Shown here: positions 18,678-32,977 of the stretch, piece by piece
Layout: every line of letters starts with the position of its first letter
How positions within the stretch are numbered: the stretch's first letter is position 1
Assembly (NCBI GenBank): GCA_937901015.1
Contig: CALCGQ010000084.1
Span: 1-56,638, forward strand
Length of the DNA stretch: 56,638 nucleotides
Direction: 5' to 3'
Origin: an uncultured Bacteroidota bacterium
Lineage (GTDB): Bacteria > Bacteroidota > Bacteroidia > Bacteroidales > F082
Made by a program: the position numbers and the translations under genes
Notes under the pieces: generated by a model
Database searches by the model: none
Told to the model about the DNA's origin: nothing
Seen by the model: only the letters and a program-made list of their open reading frames with translations

Positions 18678-20165
18678 TTATAGTTCTTTTCTAAGTCGTG
18701 CAACAGGAATTTTTAGTTGTTCTCGATATTTAGCAACAGTACGACGTGCAATGGGATAACCTTTTTCTTTCAATTTTGTTGTCAAATATTCGTCAGTAAA
18801 AGGTTTTTCCTTGCTTTCGGCATCAATTATTTCCTTGAGAATAGTCTTTATTTCACGTGTAGATACTGTTTCACCATCATCTTTTTGCATTGATTCACTG
18901 AAAAAACTCTTTATTAATAATGTCCCAAAAGGAGTTTGCACATACTTACTATTCGCTACTCTTGAAATTGTTGAAATGTCCAGATTTACTTTTTCAGCAA
19001 TATCCTTAAGAATCATTGGTTTAAGCTTTGTGTCGTCACCAGTTAACAAATACTCATACTGATAATCCATAATAGCCTTCATTGTTGAATAAAGTGTATT
19101 CTGCCGCTGTTGAATAGCATCAATAAACCATTTAGCTGAATCAACTTTTTGCTTTATGAAAGAAAAAGCTTCACGCTGCTTTTTTGTCTTTTTCTGACCT
19201 ACAACCGACTCTAGCATATTTGAATAAGTATTACTGATTTTTAATTCAGTATTATTCCATGAATTTAATGAGAGTTCAAGTTTATCACCATTATTTGTGA
19301 TGGTGAAATCAGGTATGATATAATGGTTCTCTTTGGTGGTTTCACTCAGAGAGTTTCCCGGCTTAGGATTAAGCTTAAGTATCTCATCCATTGCCTGCTT
19401 TAATTGCTCTTCAGTGATATCCATCCTTTTCATTATCTTTTGATAATGTTTCTTGGTGAAATCATTAAAGTATCTTCCAATAATCCTTTTAGAAAGCTCT
19501 AATGTTGTTGATGGTGTTTCCTGTAATCTTCTGTTTATCTGAATTAATAAGCAGTCTTTTAGATCAGAGGCACCAACTCCTGAAGGATCAAACTGTTGGA
19601 TAATCTCAAGAACATAATCAACTTCCTCTTTCGAGGTCATTATATTTTGAGTGAAGGCAAGGTCGTCAACAATAGCATCTGTGGAGCGCTGTAAATAACC
19701 AGAATCATCAATATTACCAATTATATACTCGCCAATATATGTTTCTTGTTCTTTGAGATTTCGCATATTAAGCTGAGCCAGTAGATTTTCATGAAAACTG
19801 GTTCCAGAGGCATATGGAATTTCCCTTCTCTCATCGTCGGAACTATAATTATTGGTTTTCAATTTATAAGATGGGACATCATCCTCATTTATATAATCAT
19901 TGAAATCGAATTCATCATCCTTGCTCTTAAAATCATCAAGCTCAGTATCTCCAAAATCATCCTTTGTGTCACTGTCAGGCTCATCATCAAATTGATCATC
20001 ATCAGATGTATCATTGGCATCAACCTCCAATGCCGGATTATCTTCTATCTCCTGCTTTATACGTTGTTCCAAACCAACAGTAGGTATCTGCAACAGCTTC
20101 ATCAGCAATATCTGCTGAGGACTTAGCTTTTGCAATAGCTTCTGCTGTAAACGTTGATTAAGCAT
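18678..20165 (-). CDS. rpoN: RNA polymerase sigma-54 factor
   Basis: N-terminal QKLSPQQILLMKLLQIPTVGLEQRIKQEIEDNPALE; C-terminal RpoN box ARRTVAKYREQLKIPVARLRKEL. Confidence 0.97.
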   Translation of the reverse strand: MLNQRLQQKLLQKLSPQQILLMKLLQIPTVGLEQRIKQEIEDNPALEVDANDTSDDDQFDDEPDSDTKDDFGDTELDDFKSKDDEFDFNDYINEDDVPSYKLKTNNYSSDDERREIPYASGTSFHENLLAQLNMRNLKEQETYIGEYIIGNIDDSGYLQRSTDAIVDDLAFTQNIMTSKEEVDYVLEIIQQFDPSGVGASDLKDCLLIQINRRLQETPSTTLELSKRIIGRYFNDFTKKHYQKIMKRMDITEEQLKQAMDEILKLNPKPGNSLSETTKENHYIIPDFTITNNGDKLELSLNSWNNTELKISNTYSNMLESVVGQKKTKKQREAFSFIKQKVDSAKWFIDAIQQRQNTLYSTMKAIMDYQYEYLLTGDDTKLKPMILKDIAEKVNLDISTISRVANSKYVQTPFGTLLIKSFFSESMQKDDGETVSTREIKTILKEIIDAESKEKPFTDEYLTTKLKEKGYPIARRTVAKYREQLKIPVARLRKEL

Positions 20166-27078: not shown

Positions 27079-30030
27079 CTAATATGCCCAAATTTCATCA
27101 GAAAATATCCAACATGGATTTCCAGCTCCTTTGTGCCAGTCCGGACAAATCCCTAGTGATATTCCTTTTACTTTAAGAAACTTAATTGACTCGTTTAATC
27201 CTGATAGTTCAAAATCCTTCAGAATTCCACCTGTTTCTCTCAGACTGATATCATTTTCAACGACTCCTAATTTATGGTAAACTACACCATCCATCGAACC
27301 TTCAAATATCACTTTGGTTGGCATAAATATCCATGAGTTTTCATCCTGAAGAAACCCTGCTCCTACTTTTGAGATTCTCTTAGTTTCTCCAAGATCAATT
27401 ACAACATCTAGATCCGGACCATAATATCCTTGCCAGTTTCCAGTTCTGAAGTTATCCCCACCTCTTATAGTATTAATAAGAGCAATATCACCCCCAGCAG
27501 TATATTGTGGGCTATATTCTGTGTTAACGGTTATATTTCTCCCCTTAGGTATGCGAATATATTCAGCTTCTTCAGTAAAACTCTTACGATCACCAATTTC
27601 CGCATATGCTGTTATCTCTCTGCTGGTTTGAATTTGAGCTGGAGTCGTATATCTCTCCTGAACACTTTCATACATGGAGAACCAAATGGTAGCATCCTTA
27701 TCAATACTACTCATGGAAACTTCCATTTTATCATGGAAAGTTTTTGAGTCAGCAACAAAATAAGGCACAGGTATTATCAGATTATCTGTAATCTTCTGAT
27801 ATGGTCTATCCTCAACCTTATTTCCAAATTCATGATTAGGATTTTCTCCCATATTGAATATCAACTCTCCCCCACTCATAATCATATCATGAGTAATATA
27901 TGATTTGGTGTAGAGATTATCATTATAGGAAACTGACTGAATATAAATGTCTTTAGAACTTTTACGTAATGCTTTGATTAGAAACTGTTTTCCATTCTCA
28001 AGACTTATTATCATATCATCAAATACTGGGCTTCCCAATATATAAATATCACTGCCTGGAGTCACAGGGTAAAAACCCATTGAACTTAACACATACCATG
28101 CTGACATTTGCCCACAATCCTCATTACCGCTTAAGCCATCAGGTGCATTGGAATATAGATCGGTACAAATTTCATGAATAATCTTCTGAGTTTTATATGG
28201 TTTACCAACATAATTATAAAGATATGCCATATGATGACTTGGTTCATTTCCATGGGCATACTGACCAATTAAACCGGTAATATCAGACTGATGTCTGCCT
28301 GATAGCTCCATTTTAGTATTAAATAAAGTATCTAGTTTAGCTTCATAGTTAGCATCGCCTCCCAATAGGTCTATGTGAGTGTTAATATCCTGAGGTACAA
28401 AGAAATTATATTGCCATGTATTAGCTTCTGTAAGCATGAAATTAACCTGAGTTGGATCAAACGGCACCACAAATCCACCATTACTTTTTCCTCTAAAAAA
28501 TCCTGTTTCCTTGTCATAAATGTTTTTGTAATACTGTGCGCGTTGAATAAAAGTAGCATAGGTTTCCGAATCATTTTGTGCTTTTGCAAACTCTGCGATG
28601 CACCAATCATCATATGCATATTCAAGTGTTTTCGACACAGATTCTCCTTCTTTATCTGCAGGTATATAACCCTTTGATCTATAGTATTTCAATCCAAACT
28701 GATCGGCATTGGCAGTTTCAATCATAGCCTCTAAAGCTAATTCGGCATCCCAACCTCGGATTCCCTTGACCCATGCATCTGTAATAACAGGAATTGAGTT
28801 ATATCCAATCATACAATTTGTCTCACAAGCAGCAAGTTCCCATACTGGCAGCAAACTATCATGTTTGTACATATCCAACATCGAGTTAATAAGATGATTC
28901 GTTTTTTCCTGCTCAATTATTGTAAATAATGGATGTAATGCTCTAAAGGTATCCCAAAGTGAAAAAACTGTATGCATGTCAAAAGAATTATCCTTGTGAA
29001 TGCCTCCATCATGACCCCGATAACGATGGTCCACATCAGAAGAAATGTAAGGCGCTAACATTGAATGATACATCGCTGTATAGAAAATTGATTTCTCATC
29101 GGCTGTTCCACCTGAAACTTCAATACTAGATAACCTGCTATTCCAGTTATTAAAGGCATTATTCTTCACTTCTTCAAAACCCCAACCTGGTATTTCAGAT
29201 AAGCAGTTTTCTTTGGCTCCCTTATAATCTACCATACTAATACCAACCTTTACCATTATTGGCTCACCATCATTTGTATCAAAATTCAGAACGGCAATTA
29301 AGCTATCAGCGTTAGCTGACCCCGAGTTTTGCAGATATTTTCCATCAGCTACAATCGCCTGTTGTACAGTTGGCTTTGAGAATGTAGCATAAAAATATAC
29401 CACCTGATCCGAAGCCCATGCCTTTGTTCGCCTATAACCTTGTACTTCATAATCCGAAAGAAACTGTATTTCAGCTTCAAGAATTTTTTCCGATACTACA
29501 CTCTCTATTAGATCTATTAATATCTGTGAACTATCAGACTTTGGAAAAGTATACTTATGAAATCCAACTCTCGGAGTTGTTGTAAGCTCAACAACAATAT
29601 TATTATCAAGGCTTACACTGTAGTATCCTGCTTTGGCAACTTCATTATCATGACTAAACTTCGAGCCATAACCTGATTCAGGATTTTCTGAAGTTCCAGG
29701 ATTAGTTTTAAGCTCACCAACCAAAGGAACAAATCTAATATCGCCATAATCACCAACACCAGTTCCACTCAAATGCATATGGCTAAATCCAAGGATAAAA
29801 TCATCACTGTAATGATATCCGGAACATCCGTCCCAGCTATCTTTTCGAGTATCCGGACTTAACTGAACCATACCAAAAGGTTGAGCTGCTCCGGGATAAG
29901 TATGACCGTGTCCTCCGGTCCCAATGAATGGATTTACATAATCTGCTGGATTTTTTTGCTCATCGCCACAACTGGTCAATAATATAATACTTAAAAAGAC
30001 TCCTGAAAATAATCGTGAAAAATTCATCAT
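27079..30030 (-). CDS. GH92-family alpha-mannosidase lipoprotein with C-terminal discoidin-like domain
   Basis: 983 aa; lipobox LLTSC; VNPFIGTGGHGHTYPGAAQPFGMVQLSPDT, SGNEDCGQMSAWYVLSSMGFYPVTPG. Confidence 0.95.
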   Translation of the reverse strand: MMNFSRLFSGVFLSIILLTSCGDEQKNPADYVNPFIGTGGHGHTYPGAAQPFGMVQLSPDTRKDSWDGCSGYHYSDDFILGFSHMHLSGTGVGDYGDIRFVPLVGELKTNPGTSENPESGYGSKFSHDNEVAKAGYYSVSLDNNIVVELTTTPRVGFHKYTFPKSDSSQILIDLIESVVSEKILEAEIQFLSDYEVQGYRRTKAWASDQVVYFYATFSKPTVQQAIVADGKYLQNSGSANADSLIAVLNFDTNDGEPIMVKVGISMVDYKGAKENCLSEIPGWGFEEVKNNAFNNWNSRLSSIEVSGGTADEKSIFYTAMYHSMLAPYISSDVDHRYRGHDGGIHKDNSFDMHTVFSLWDTFRALHPLFTIIEQEKTNHLINSMLDMYKHDSLLPVWELAACETNCMIGYNSIPVITDAWVKGIRGWDAELALEAMIETANADQFGLKYYRSKGYIPADKEGESVSKTLEYAYDDWCIAEFAKAQNDSETYATFIQRAQYYKNIYDKETGFFRGKSNGGFVVPFDPTQVNFMLTEANTWQYNFFVPQDINTHIDLLGGDANYEAKLDTLFNTKMELSGRHQSDITGLIGQYAHGNEPSHHMAYLYNYVGKPYKTQKIIHEICTDLYSNAPDGLSGNEDCGQMSAWYVLSSMGFYPVTPGSDIYILGSPVFDDMIISLENGKQFLIKALRKSSKDIYIQSVSYNDNLYTKSYITHDMIMSGGELIFNMGENPNHEFGNKVEDRPYQKITDNLIIPVPYFVADSKTFHDKMEVSMSSIDKDATIWFSMYESVQERYTTPAQIQTSREITAYAEIGDRKSFTEEAEYIRIPKGRNITVNTEYSPQYTAGGDIALINTIRGGDNFRTGNWQGYYGPDLDVVIDLGETKRISKVGAGFLQDENSWIFMPTKVIFEGSMDGVVYHKLGVVENDISLRETGGILKDFELSGLNESIKFLKVKGISLGICPDWHKGAGNPCWIFSDEIWAY

Positions 30031-30043
30031 GAGGTAAATTATT

Positions 30044-31672
30044 TTACTTGGTTACAAATGGGTGATCACAATAATTATATCCTAGTTTGTCATAGATTCC
30101 GAAATGGGTTTCTATCTTATTTTTAAATAATGGCCAATTTTTATCACCAGTCCAAACTACCTCGCTTAGAGCCGCCATTCTTGGTAGTATCATATACTCC
30201 ACATAATCCGTAGTTTCCATGTATTCTGTCCATACATTGCCCTGAGCACCAAGAATATGTTTTGCTTCCTCAGCATTGAGCTCTTCGGGAATAGGATTAT
30301 AAGAATAGACTTTTTCAAGAGTAGTAAAACCACCTATTGCAAGTGGCTCAGTTTCTTTATTAGCCTGATAATGATCGAAATAACAGTGTGACCCAGGAGT
30401 CATAATAGCATCATGACCATCTTTAGCTGCAGCAATACCCCCTTCAGTACCTCTCCACGACATAACTGTTGCATTAGGTGCCAGACCACCTTCAAGTATT
30501 TCATCCCATCCAATTATACTTCTACCATGACTATTCAGGAATTTCTCCATTCTTTGAATAAAATAGCTTTGAAGTTCGTGTTCATCATTCAGCCCTTCTC
30601 TTTTGATAGTAGCCTGACAAGTACTACATTCTTTCCATCTTGCTTTCGGAGCCTCGTCGCCACCGATGTGAATATATGTGGAAGGGAAAAGGTCCATTAC
30701 TTCAAGCAATACATTTTCCAAAAACTCAAAGGTTTGTTCTTTAGTACAATAAATATCTTCAAAAACACCCCAGGTTGTTGCAACTTCATAGGGGCCTTCG
30801 GTACATCCTAACTCAGGATATGAAGCAAGAGCAGCGAGTGAATGGCCGGGCATTTCAATTTCTGGTATTACGGTTATCTGACGCTCAGTTGCATATGCAA
30901 CAACTTCCCGAACCTCATCTTGAGTGTAGAATCCACCATATTTCTTTCCATCGTATTGTGGAGTTTCTTTTCCATAATGACCTACTAAAGTTTCTTTTCG
31001 CCATGAACCAACCTCCGTAAGCTTTGGATATTTCTTAATCTCAATTCTCCATCCTTGGTCTTCTGTTAAGTGCCAATGAAAGGTATTGAACTTATAGAAT
31101 GCTAATATATCGATATACTTCTTTATGAATTCCACAGGAAACATATGGCGGCAAACGTCGAGATGCATTCCTCGATATGGAAATTGCGGCTTATCCACTA
31201 TCTCCAATGTTGGAATCATCACCTGCATATTGTCGTGGTCAATGGTGAGTTTATTTGATAAAAATATTTGATACAATGACTGAAGGGCATAAAAAGTTCC
31301 TCTTGGTGAGTTTGCTTCAATGATAACCTTCTCCTCTTTTATTATCAGTTTGTAAGCCTCTTGATCATTATCATTGCTACCAGGTATTAATTTTAATATA
31401 ATAACATTGGACTCTTTGGAATTCTTAAGAGTTGATGTATTAATCTTAATCCCAAATGAATTAACTACCAAATCTGCAAAATATGAAGCTTGTTGTTTTA
31501 ACTCTTCATTATTATCATATACAACAACTGTATTCTTATGGAGTTTAAACTCATCACCTCCCATTATTAATTGTTGTGGTTCAGGTATTATCATTGTTTG
31601 TTTAATTTCTTTTTTTTGGCAAGATGTTAAGATTAACAGCATGGAAAGCAGGAAGAATAAAGATGGTTTCAT
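30044..31672 (-). CDS. GH20 beta-N-acetylhexosaminidase lipoprotein
   Basis: Start refined to ATG 31672 (MKPSLFFLLSMLLILTSCQKKE lipoprotein signal); FHWHLTEDQGWRIEIKKYP, HIGGDEAPK catalytic DE. Confidence 0.95.
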   Translation of the reverse strand: MKPSLFFLLSMLLILTSCQKKEIKQTMIIPEPQQLIMGGDEFKLHKNTVVVYDNNEELKQQASYFADLVVNSFGIKINTSTLKNSKESNVIILKLIPGSNDNDQEAYKLIIKEEKVIIEANSPRGTFYALQSLYQIFLSNKLTIDHDNMQVMIPTLEIVDKPQFPYRGMHLDVCRHMFPVEFIKKYIDILAFYKFNTFHWHLTEDQGWRIEIKKYPKLTEVGSWRKETLVGHYGKETPQYDGKKYGGFYTQDEVREVVAYATERQITVIPEIEMPGHSLAALASYPELGCTEGPYEVATTWGVFEDIYCTKEQTFEFLENVLLEVMDLFPSTYIHIGGDEAPKARWKECSTCQATIKREGLNDEHELQSYFIQRMEKFLNSHGRSIIGWDEILEGGLAPNATVMSWRGTEGGIAAAKDGHDAIMTPGSHCYFDHYQANKETEPLAIGGFTTLEKVYSYNPIPEELNAEEAKHILGAQGNVWTEYMETTDYVEYMILPRMAALSEVVWTGDKNWPLFKNKIETHFGIYDKLGYNYCDHPFVTK

Positions 31673-31785
31673 CAATTTAAAGCTTTGGTTTCTAATAAAA
31701 AATTTCAACGGATACAAAGTTATGTATTTTGTTGAGGAGCCCAACAAAATGAAATATTACTTCGTAATTAATGAAATAGAATAAA

Positions 31786-31819
31786 TGAAAAATCCCCACC
31801 TGAATGAACAGATAGGGAT
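31786..31819 (-). terminator. putative terminator downstream of the 31843-32217 gene
   Basis: Minus strand: atccctatctg-ttcatt-caggtggggat followed by tttt. Confidence 0.55.
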
Positions 31820-31842: not shown

Positions 31843-32217
31843 TTAATTTATAACTAATACTTTAGCGTAAGTTCTTACCGATGGCTTTGATAAATTTTGT
31901 GAAATTGCAGAAGGTATATCATTAATGTATTGTTCTTGTTCAAAACAGAAGTTTTCTGAAATTGCTTTATAATAAAGATTTAAGCTAGTTAAGTATTGTT
32001 CGTCAAATGGCAGATCATCAATAGTTGTTTCTTCATTAAAGGAAAAATCAACTTGGATAGCAATGTCGTATCTTGTTTGTATTTCAACATCTTCAAGGTT
32101 AAATGGGATATCATCTATGTATTCTTCTTGTTCAAACTCTAAACCAGTGGCCATTATATTTAGTGATGCTAGGAAGATGATCAGAATTAGTGCGGTAGTT
32201 TTAGTTAAAGTTTTCAT
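31843..32217 (-). CDS. small secreted protein with three 32-aa repeat units (YIDDIP motif)
   Basis: 124 aa; signal peptide MKTLTKTTALILIIFLASLNIMATG; FEQEEYIDDIPFN / FNEETTIDDLPFD / FEQEQYINDIPSA starting at residues 28, 60 and 92. Confidence 0.85.
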   Translation of the reverse strand: MKTLTKTTALILIIFLASLNIMATGLEFEQEEYIDDIPFNLEDVEIQTRYDIAIQVDFSFNEETTIDDLPFDEQYLTSLNLYYKAISENFCFEQEQYINDIPSAISQNLSKPSVRTYAKVLVIN

Positions 32218-32249
32218 CAGTATATTTTTTATCAGTTGTTATTATGAAG

Positions 32250-32280
32250 CAAAAATACGCTCAATAATGGCCCAAGTAAA
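32250..32280 (-). promoter_or_regulatory. putative promoter TTTA-N19-TATTTTTG
   Basis: rc of caaaaata (32250-32257) and taaa (32277-32280), 19 bp spacer; identical layout upstream of the paralog. Confidence 0.7.
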
Positions 32281-32289
32281 TAGATAATA

Positions 32290-32317
32290 GGTGAGTGGAA
32301 GGGGTTTTTCGGTGAGT
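32290..32317. promoter_or_regulatory. direct repeats GGTGAGT x2, 21-bp period, upstream of promoter
   Basis: ggtgagt at 32290-32296 and 32311-32317. Confidence 0.55.
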
Positions 32318-32404
32318 AGCGGAAATATTACTTTGTATCGTAAATCTATTAGATATGAATATATAATGGGCAGATTAAACTAGGTTAGGATAATAATTTC
32401 AATT

Positions 32405-32438
32405 CAAAAAAAGTCCCCACAGAGAGTGTCTATGGGGA
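32405..32438 (-). terminator. Rho-independent terminator downstream of the 32502-32858 gene
   Basis: Minus strand: tccccatagacactctctgtgggga then cttttttt. Confidence 0.75.
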
Positions 32439-32501
32439 GGAGATTTTAGTTTGAGCCAAAACCTTATATGTTGAGAAATTTATTACTAATTCCGGATGCT
32501 T

Positions 32502-32858
32502 CTAGTTTGTAACGGCAATAAGTCTGTAACATGACTTCATAACTATTGCAGTTGGGATATCATCTATGTATTCTTCTTCTTCAAAGCTAAATTCTTGATA
32601 AATGGTATTTGAATTATGCACTAAACTTGTATGAGATTCTATATTTGAAGGGATATCATCTATATATTCTTCATCTGAAAGTGAAAAATCCACGGCAAGT
32701 GCTTTTTCCAATGAAATCTGGTTTATAACTTCTTCTACATTAAAAGGTATGTCATCAATATAACTCTCTTGTTCAAATTCAAAACCTGTTGCAAAAATAT
32801 TTAGTGAAATTAGTAATGCTGAGAAGAAGAGGGCGGTAGATTTAGTATAAGTTTTCAT
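32502..32858 (-). CDS. small secreted protein with three 32-aa repeat units (YIDDIP motif), paralog
   Basis: 118 aa; signal MKTYTKSTALFFSALLISLNIFATG; FEQESYIDDIPFN / LSDEEYIDDIPSN / FEEEEYIDDIPTA at residues 28, 60 and 92. Confidence 0.85.
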   Translation of the reverse strand: MKTYTKSTALFFSALLISLNIFATGFEFEQESYIDDIPFNVEEVINQISLEKALAVDFSLSDEEYIDDIPSNIESHTSLVHNSNTIYQEFSFEEEEYIDDIPTAIVMKSCYRLIAVTN

Positions 32859-32889
32859 CGTTTTATTTTTTCTGTGATTAAATATGAAG

Positions 32890-32920
32890 CAAAAATATGC
32901 TCAATTATGGCTCATGTAAA
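32890..32920 (-). promoter_or_regulatory. putative promoter TTTA-N19-TATTTTTG
   Basis: rc of caaaaata (32890-32897) and taaa (32917-32920), 19 bp spacer. Confidence 0.7.
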
Positions 32921-32950
32921 CATTAAATAGGCCAATTGGAGAGTATTTTC

Positions 32951-32977
32951 GGTGAGTGGAGAAAACTGTCGGTGAAA
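32951..32977. promoter_or_regulatory. direct repeats GGTGAGT/GGTGAAA, 20-bp period, upstream of promoter
   Basis: ggtgagt at 32951-32957 and ggtgaaa at 32971-32977; the first copy lies at exactly the same distance from the -33 box as the 32311 copy. Confidence 0.55.

Follow-up and report, generated by a model that had tools for sequence, protein, structure and literature searches.

A Tandem Pair of Exported Repeat Proteins

The window, a 56,638-nucleotide stretch of DNA from an uncultured Bacteroidota bacterium, contains two adjacent genes on the minus strand that encode small proteins of 124 and 118 aa. Both ORFs lie where a preliminary description, made from the sequence alone, had placed them. 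Each product consists of an N-terminal signal-peptide region followed by three 32-aa units. The features of the pair are as follows.

31792..31819, minus strand: intrinsic terminator of gene 1
31843..32217, minus strand: repeat gene 1 (P0001, 124 aa), signal peptide and three 32-aa units (YIDDIP, TIDDLP, YINDIP)
31909..31929, minus strand: gene 1 motif core 3, YINDIPS, residues 97-103
32005..32025, minus strand: gene 1 motif core 2, TIDDLPF, degenerate, residues 65-71
32101..32121, minus strand: gene 1 motif core 1, YIDDIPF, residues 33-39
32146..32217, minus strand: gene 1 signal-peptide region, residues 1-24, read from sequence, without a lipobox
32414..32438, minus strand: intrinsic terminator of gene 2
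32502..32858, minus strand: repeat gene 2 (P0002, 118 aa), signal peptide and three 32-aa units (YIDDIP in all three)
32550..32570, minus strand: gene 2 motif core 3, YIDDIPT, residues 97-103
32646..32666, minus strand: gene 2 motif core 2, YIDDIPS, residues 65-71
32742..32762, minus strand: gene 2 motif core 1, YIDDIPF, residues 33-39
32787..32858, minus strand: gene 2 signal-peptide region, residues 1-24, read from sequence, with an AlphaFold2 helix at residues 2-24

In both proteins the motif Ile occupies positions 34, 66, and 98, which bears out the exact 32-aa period noted earlier. Three YIDDIP copies had been ascribed to each protein; three units are indeed present in both, but the middle and third units of gene 1 read TIDDLP and YINDIP. 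Self-comparison at a lag of 32 gives 17 identities over 70 positions for the 124-aa protein and 23 over 64 for the 118-aa protein, against a shuffle mean of about 4.5. This score was unreached in 10,000 shuffles, and 32 was the best lag for both proteins. The dN/dS ratio between genes 1 and 2 is 0.22, indicating purifying selection, and values of 0.14-0.39 were obtained in most paralog and ortholog comparisons (0.00 where dS was saturated). Both ORFs thus look like real coding genes.

Three intrinsic terminators were found in the region versus 0.3 in shuffles, and each gene has its own terminator and upstream control region, in agreement with the view that these are duplicated, separately transcribed units. 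A sigma-70 consensus scan, however, stayed at the level of chance. Gene 1 is the ortholog of the second tandem gene of a relative (L008/L175; tree support 0.96), so the duplication that produced the pair predates the split from the relative. GH92-like and GH20-like glycosidase genes beside the pair (window positions 27079-31747) are conserved neighbors in relatives (L151, L157, L175, and L176), which marks the tandem pair as a stable locus.

Distribution of the Repeat Family

The YIDDIP proteins are a large, undescribed family found in uncultured relatives of Bacteroides. The family is multicopy, with six genes in this genome: the window pair, a tandem pair on contig C27 whose products are 82% and 78% identical to that of gene 2, and single genes on C10 and C65. 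Matches were found in 33 of 61 genomes comprising this genome and its relatives, and in 30 of 393 genomes sampled evenly across the order, in about fifteen GTDB families. Similar small ORFs are therefore present in other Bacteroidota, as the preliminary description had stated. In a phylum sample of 396 genomes, largely of the same class, the family was seen in this genome only; the restriction to one family that this had hinted at was overturned by the order sample. All named records with the family are metagenome-assembled genomes, titled Bacteroidales, Marinilabiliales, Bacteroidia, Bacteroidetes, or "Chlorobiota".

Most members have three units (range 2-5), and the 32-aa spacing is conserved in homologs: a spacing of 32 residues was counted 62 times and one of 31 residues 12 times. 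The consensus of the unit is F-x-E-E-E-x-Y-[IV]-[DN]-D-I-P-F-[ND]-T-x-x-[IV]-A ... A-[LM] ... F, the linker being its least conserved part. Signal peptides across the family share a conserved MKT, a hydrophobic stretch, and A-x-A, and C-termini are short and variable; in the C10 copy and its relatives the last unit is truncated in a conserved form, YIDDIEL or YINDINL. Searches of Pfam (39 members), NCBIfam, and PDB sequences gave no convincing match, which leaves the proteins outside any characterized family, as first supposed. Single weak matches to DUF7391, ferredoxin, MCM_WH, and ArsA were dismissed as chance. Most of what gene-neighbor clustering recovered was conserved synteny of housekeeping genes such as rsmI and thymidine kinase; the informative neighbors are an ABC transporter beside some members and the link to rsmI described below.

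Export and Predicted Structure

By their sequence, the window proteins appear to be exported via Sec-type signal peptides. We found no lipobox, type-IX tail, or C-terminal anchor by sequence, Pfam, or NCBIfam. The tail past the last motif is shorter than 25 aa in the window proteins, and the short, variable C-termini, which match nothing in Pfam or NCBIfam, do not form a PEP motif, membrane helix, and basic tail. The products had been called secreted; export holds, but the location is probably periplasmic, by default. Mature family proteins are strongly acidic, with a median pI of 3.7 and a median charge of -18. AlphaFold2 predicts the signal-peptide helix followed by extended acidic segments alternating with unpacked helices of ~15 residues (pLDDT 76, pTM 0.21), and a similar model was obtained for a five-unit member (pTM 0.19), although such low pTM values may stem from shallow alignments. 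Foldseek returned no fold match in the PDB.

An Apparent LytTR-Type Operator Shared with a LiaF-Kinase-Regulator Operon

Upstream of both window genes we found TCACCGA and TCRCCTA-like direct repeats 21 bp apart, followed on the gene strand by ATTTAC and a TAT-TTTTGC element. The direct repeats bound by LytTR regulators lie about two helical turns apart. The sites are listed below.

32249..32258, minus strand: putative -7 element of gene 1, GTATTTTTGC, also present in family members (sequence, aligned by eye)
32276..32315, minus strand: LytTR-type double direct repeat upstream of gene 1, TCACCGA-N14-TCACCTA-N6-ATTTAC, 0 mismatches
32889..32898, minus strand: putative -7 element of gene 2, ATATTTTTGC (sequence, aligned by eye)
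32916..32955, minus strand: LytTR-type double direct repeat upstream of gene 2, TCACCGA-N14-TGGCCTA-N6-GTTTAC, 2 mismatches
32969..32975, minus strand: third half-site copy of gene 2, TCACCGA, one 20-21 bp step further upstream

The core pattern has two matches in the window versus 0.26 expected. Across this genome, a 20-base pattern with up to three mismatches gave nine matches versus one for the reversed control. These precede five repeat genes, an operon on C16, a PspC/LiaF-type gene pair on C395, and a TonB-dependent receptor gene on C161; the match on C101 is chance-like. The C16 operon encodes a LytTR regulator (PF04397, 3.6e-26), a histidine kinase (His_kinase, PF06580, 3.2e-30), and a LiaF-like membrane protein (LiaF-TM, PF22570, 7.4e-14). 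A refined pattern applied to 37 genomes, this one and its relatives, yielded 55 matches and no reversed-control matches. All 28 newly fetched loci precede LiaF-like (14), repeat (9), PspC (4), or TM2-type (1) genes. Besides the repeat genes, the site in this genus and family occurs almost only before the LiaF-histidine kinase-LytTR operon and PspC genes, and no PspA or LiaH was seen among the classified matches.

Judged from these matches and the genes that follow them, a LytTR-LiaF system and the window genes have the same apparent operator, a connection that the preliminary description, which mentioned no shared regulatory sites, did not draw. As in Lia/Psp-type systems, regulator and kinase are encoded with a LiaF-like protein and the targets carry the regulator operon's own operator, and the operon is apparently autoregulated.

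At several loci, a repeat gene with the LytTR-type operator (class A) is followed in the same direction by genes for an ABC ATPase and an ABC permease/M1 peptidase, some with TolC-type genes (G000:C10, which is L048 189-6510, and L125, L130, L163, L166, L172, and L173). The TonB-dependent receptor gene (G000:C161:343-382) and a TM2-domain gene (L053) are candidate further members of the regulon. A second two-component system, a sigma-54 activator with a kinase, adjoins the LytTR-LiaF operon on C16 (L194 8960-12662, L045); a MacB/FtsX-type ABC transporter, associated with a TGGCAC-type site, is oriented divergently from it. Seven LiaF-like proteins of this regulon (L041, L058, L059, L067, L068, L076, and L078) carry YIDD[VI]S[IV][LF]GG, with Y/F variants, where the Toastrack-like region begins; the likeness to YIDDIP may be coincidental.

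Sigma-54 and ECF-Type Promoters in Other Family Members

Two further promoter types precede family genes. Class B comprises a sigma-54 -24/-12 element preceded by the inverted repeat [CT]GNACA-N4/5-TGTNC[GA]; the distance from the start of this repeat down to TTTGGCA is mostly 92 or 102 bp, a fixed helical phasing. Class C is the element TGTAAC-N16/17-[CAT]GTC, which we take to be an ECF-type promoter by comparison with the general ECF consensus. Among 147 distinct repeat genes, as classed from promoter sequence only, 75 have the sigma-54 type alone (76 with one that is also ECF-type), 55 the LytTR type alone, and two both. The remaining 14 have neither, and 10 of these are ECF-type, so that one of the three classes is present in 143 of 147. 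The same tests on 671 other ORFs gave 54 (sigma-54), 7 (LytTR), and 8 (ECF-type), a comparison in which the sigma-54 and LytTR patterns were learned on the family in which they were then counted; the independent part is formed by the genome-wide searches with reversed controls. In the 37 genomes, the combined class B pattern precedes mostly repeat genes, with some chance-like matches and a non-zero control.

Seven strong EBP genes in this genome were considered as the class B activator, and none is preceded by the inverted repeat. The window itself contains rpoN, which encodes sigma-54 (18678-20165, minus strand; PF04963, 3.6e-57), the expected driver of the class B relatives; its linkage to the pair is probably coincidental. 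Outside the window organism's family, repeat genes are mainly of the sigma-54 type (20-21 of 26), and LytTR control is almost confined to that family. This distribution suggests that sigma-54 control is the older arrangement and that LytTR control may have arrived with gene multiplication.

A Second Tandem-Motif Family Occupies the Same rsmI-Linked Slot

Following up a sigma-54 match from another family, we came upon a protein whose tandem motif, L-x-L-[ED]-x-W-[ML], differs from YIDDIP; we call it LExWM. Of 198 genomes of the order, a profile identified relatives in 19, all from families without YIDDIP proteins; the complete lack of genome overlap with YIDDIP is not significant alone (about 1.6 expected). 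The genes of these exported tandem-motif proteins (L196-L201 and L206-L232), likewise an undescribed family, are preceded by sigma-54 or ECF-type promoters. A LytTR-like match before two of the genes (L209 and L225) was set aside, with three mismatches and an ECF-type promoter present. Alignment of the YIDDIP and LExWM profiles by hhalign joins only the signal peptides (probability 20) and gives no repeat homology. The two families nevertheless share a slot, mostly 117-290 bp downstream of rsmI on the same strand and mostly with a sigma-54 promoter. It is held by YIDDIP genes in the window organism's family (the C65 copy here) and several others, and by LExWM genes in families f8 and f15. Either one rsmI-linked gene has diverged beyond recognition, or one family has replaced the other in place.

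Discussion

We propose that the window genes are outputs of an envelope-stress regulon and encode exported, mostly unfolded, multivalent acidic binders; for this reading as a whole, the case for and the case against are about evenly balanced. The regulatory part, read from shared DNA sites, is quite likely. In this scheme, the LytTR response regulator of an operon that also encodes a LytS-type histidine kinase and a LiaF-like membrane protein would bind the paired direct repeats, which are spaced 21 bp apart and precede the promoters, and would turn on the repeat genes. PspC/LiaF-type membrane proteins and, at some paralogous loci, an ABC transporter/M1-peptidase/TolC operon would be induced with them. 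LiaF, PspC, and the regulator types point to envelope stress as the signal, and FtsX-type antimicrobial-peptide permeases and chaperones are reported in Bacteroidia by a sigma-54 survey (PMC12316311). Not all targets of LytTR regulators are stress genes, however, and the range of sigma-54-dependent functions is wide. The products, Sec-exported and probably periplasmic, would be about 95-100 residues long with a charge of about -16 to -19, presenting three or so extended motifs (F-x-EEE-x-Y-[IV]-[DN]-D-I-P-F-[ND]-T); a short helix would follow each motif, and the chain would lack a fixed tertiary fold. Taking the place of the Spy/CpxP or LiaH of other bacteria, they might act as multivalent "sponges" or simple chaperones, either for intruding molecules that are cationic or amphipathic or for envelope proteins that have misfolded. 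This binder role, suggested by charge and repeat architecture, is a tentative proposal that may well prove wrong.

Several known systems resemble parts of this arrangement. Like the Lia/Vra systems (B. subtilis LiaFSR-LiaIH and S. aureus VraTSR), it groups a LiaF-like protein, a histidine kinase, and a response regulator in a single operon, with a PspC/LiaF pair among the other members of the regulon. Here, however, the response regulator is of the LytTR type and the kinase of the His_kinase (PF06580) type, and the outputs include exported tandem-motif proteins, with no LiaH/PspA among the regulon matches. In the main text of the PSP survey of Ravi et al. (PMC11237479), LytTR with Toastrack-LiaF is mentioned in Firmicutes only. 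The E. coli Psp system (PspF/sigma-54, PspA, PspB, and PspC) shares sigma-54 with some members and PspC with the regulon of others, but in the present case sigma-54 and PspC belong to separate circuits and the products are exported and unrelated to PspA. The Cpx-controlled Spy/CpxP proteins, also small, exported, and stress-induced, serve as a working analogy. Their helical LTXXQ fold differs from the acidic extended repeats in both sequence and fold; no LTXXQ/Spy domain was matched by Pfam in 39 members, nor was there a PDB sequence or fold match. In ECF regulons (B. subtilis sigma-X/M/W type promoters) the promoters resemble TGTAAC-N16/17-CGTC, found before ten members, but here the ECF type is only a minority class.

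The sigma-54 promoters invite comparison with PEP-CTERM proteins under PrsK/PrsR, and an extracellular matrix or aggregation protein akin to these floc proteins, its repeats cross-linking polysaccharide or cells, is an unlikely though not far-fetched alternative. Both groups are multicopy small exported proteins with sigma-54 promoters, here with an upstream inverted repeat, and PEP-CTERM genes in other phyla can be RpoN-dependent, according to one study (PMC9850573). The present proteins have repeats instead of a C-terminal sorting signal, however; neither a lipobox nor a type-IX tail was found, polysaccharide genes do not recur nearby, and the LytTR class accompanies LiaF/PspC. The near-constant length of the tandem unit, the multicopy genes, and export would equally suit a precursor from which the 32-aa units are cut as acidic signal peptides after export, unit number setting the dosage, and some LytTR systems elsewhere control peptide signals. 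This proposal, raised in the preliminary description, fares poorly and we regard it as improbable: linkers are the least conserved part, a dibasic pair occurs in only 16 of 154 linkers and 32 of 154 contain no K/R at all, units inside one protein differ, and no maturation gene is common to the loci.

The idea of a calcium or other metal-binding surface ligand, also raised there, draws on the high density of Asp and Glu. No EF-hand, dockerin, or other known domain was found, nor any surface anchor. Conservation of Tyr, Ile, Pro, and Phe is no weaker than that of the acidic residues, a pattern suggestive of a linear motif for protein binding, and we consider the metal ligand very unlikely. We likewise see little chance that the repeats are a feedback ligand in which YIDD[IV] mimics the start of the LiaF-like Toastrack ([DN]DYIDDVSILGG) and titrates or resets the sensor complex. 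The YIDDV or YIDDI element does occur in LiaF-like proteins behind the same DNA site, and the co-regulation is dedicated, but the match spans four or five residues, the LiaF C-terminal domain is cytoplasmic by its positive-inside pattern while the repeats are exported, and sigma-54 and LExWM members have no such partner.

Beyond the regulon reading of the window genes, a broader possibility, which we consider speculative and somewhat less probable than not, is that YIDDIP and LExWM proteins descend from one ancestral rsmI-linked gene, a general envelope-stress output of the order that would have been rewired between sigma-54, ECF-sigma, and LytTR-LiaF control while multiplying, and that would act by a novel motif-binding mechanism.

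The exported repeat family is probably a new kind of cell-envelope stress protein. Little seems to have been written on the envelope-stress responses of Bacteroidota, and our few full-text literature searches returned nothing on the YIDDIP or LExWM motifs or on a LytTR-LiaF regulon in this phylum. The analysis yields an operator that can be tested, a LytTR-LiaF system that apparently regulates itself, and a large exported family whose genes are regulated. If the proposal is true, a probable function could be given to unannotated small ORFs in many genomes, and the control of one family by three unrelated kinds of regulator would well illustrate how regulation can be rewired while the type of protein stays the same.
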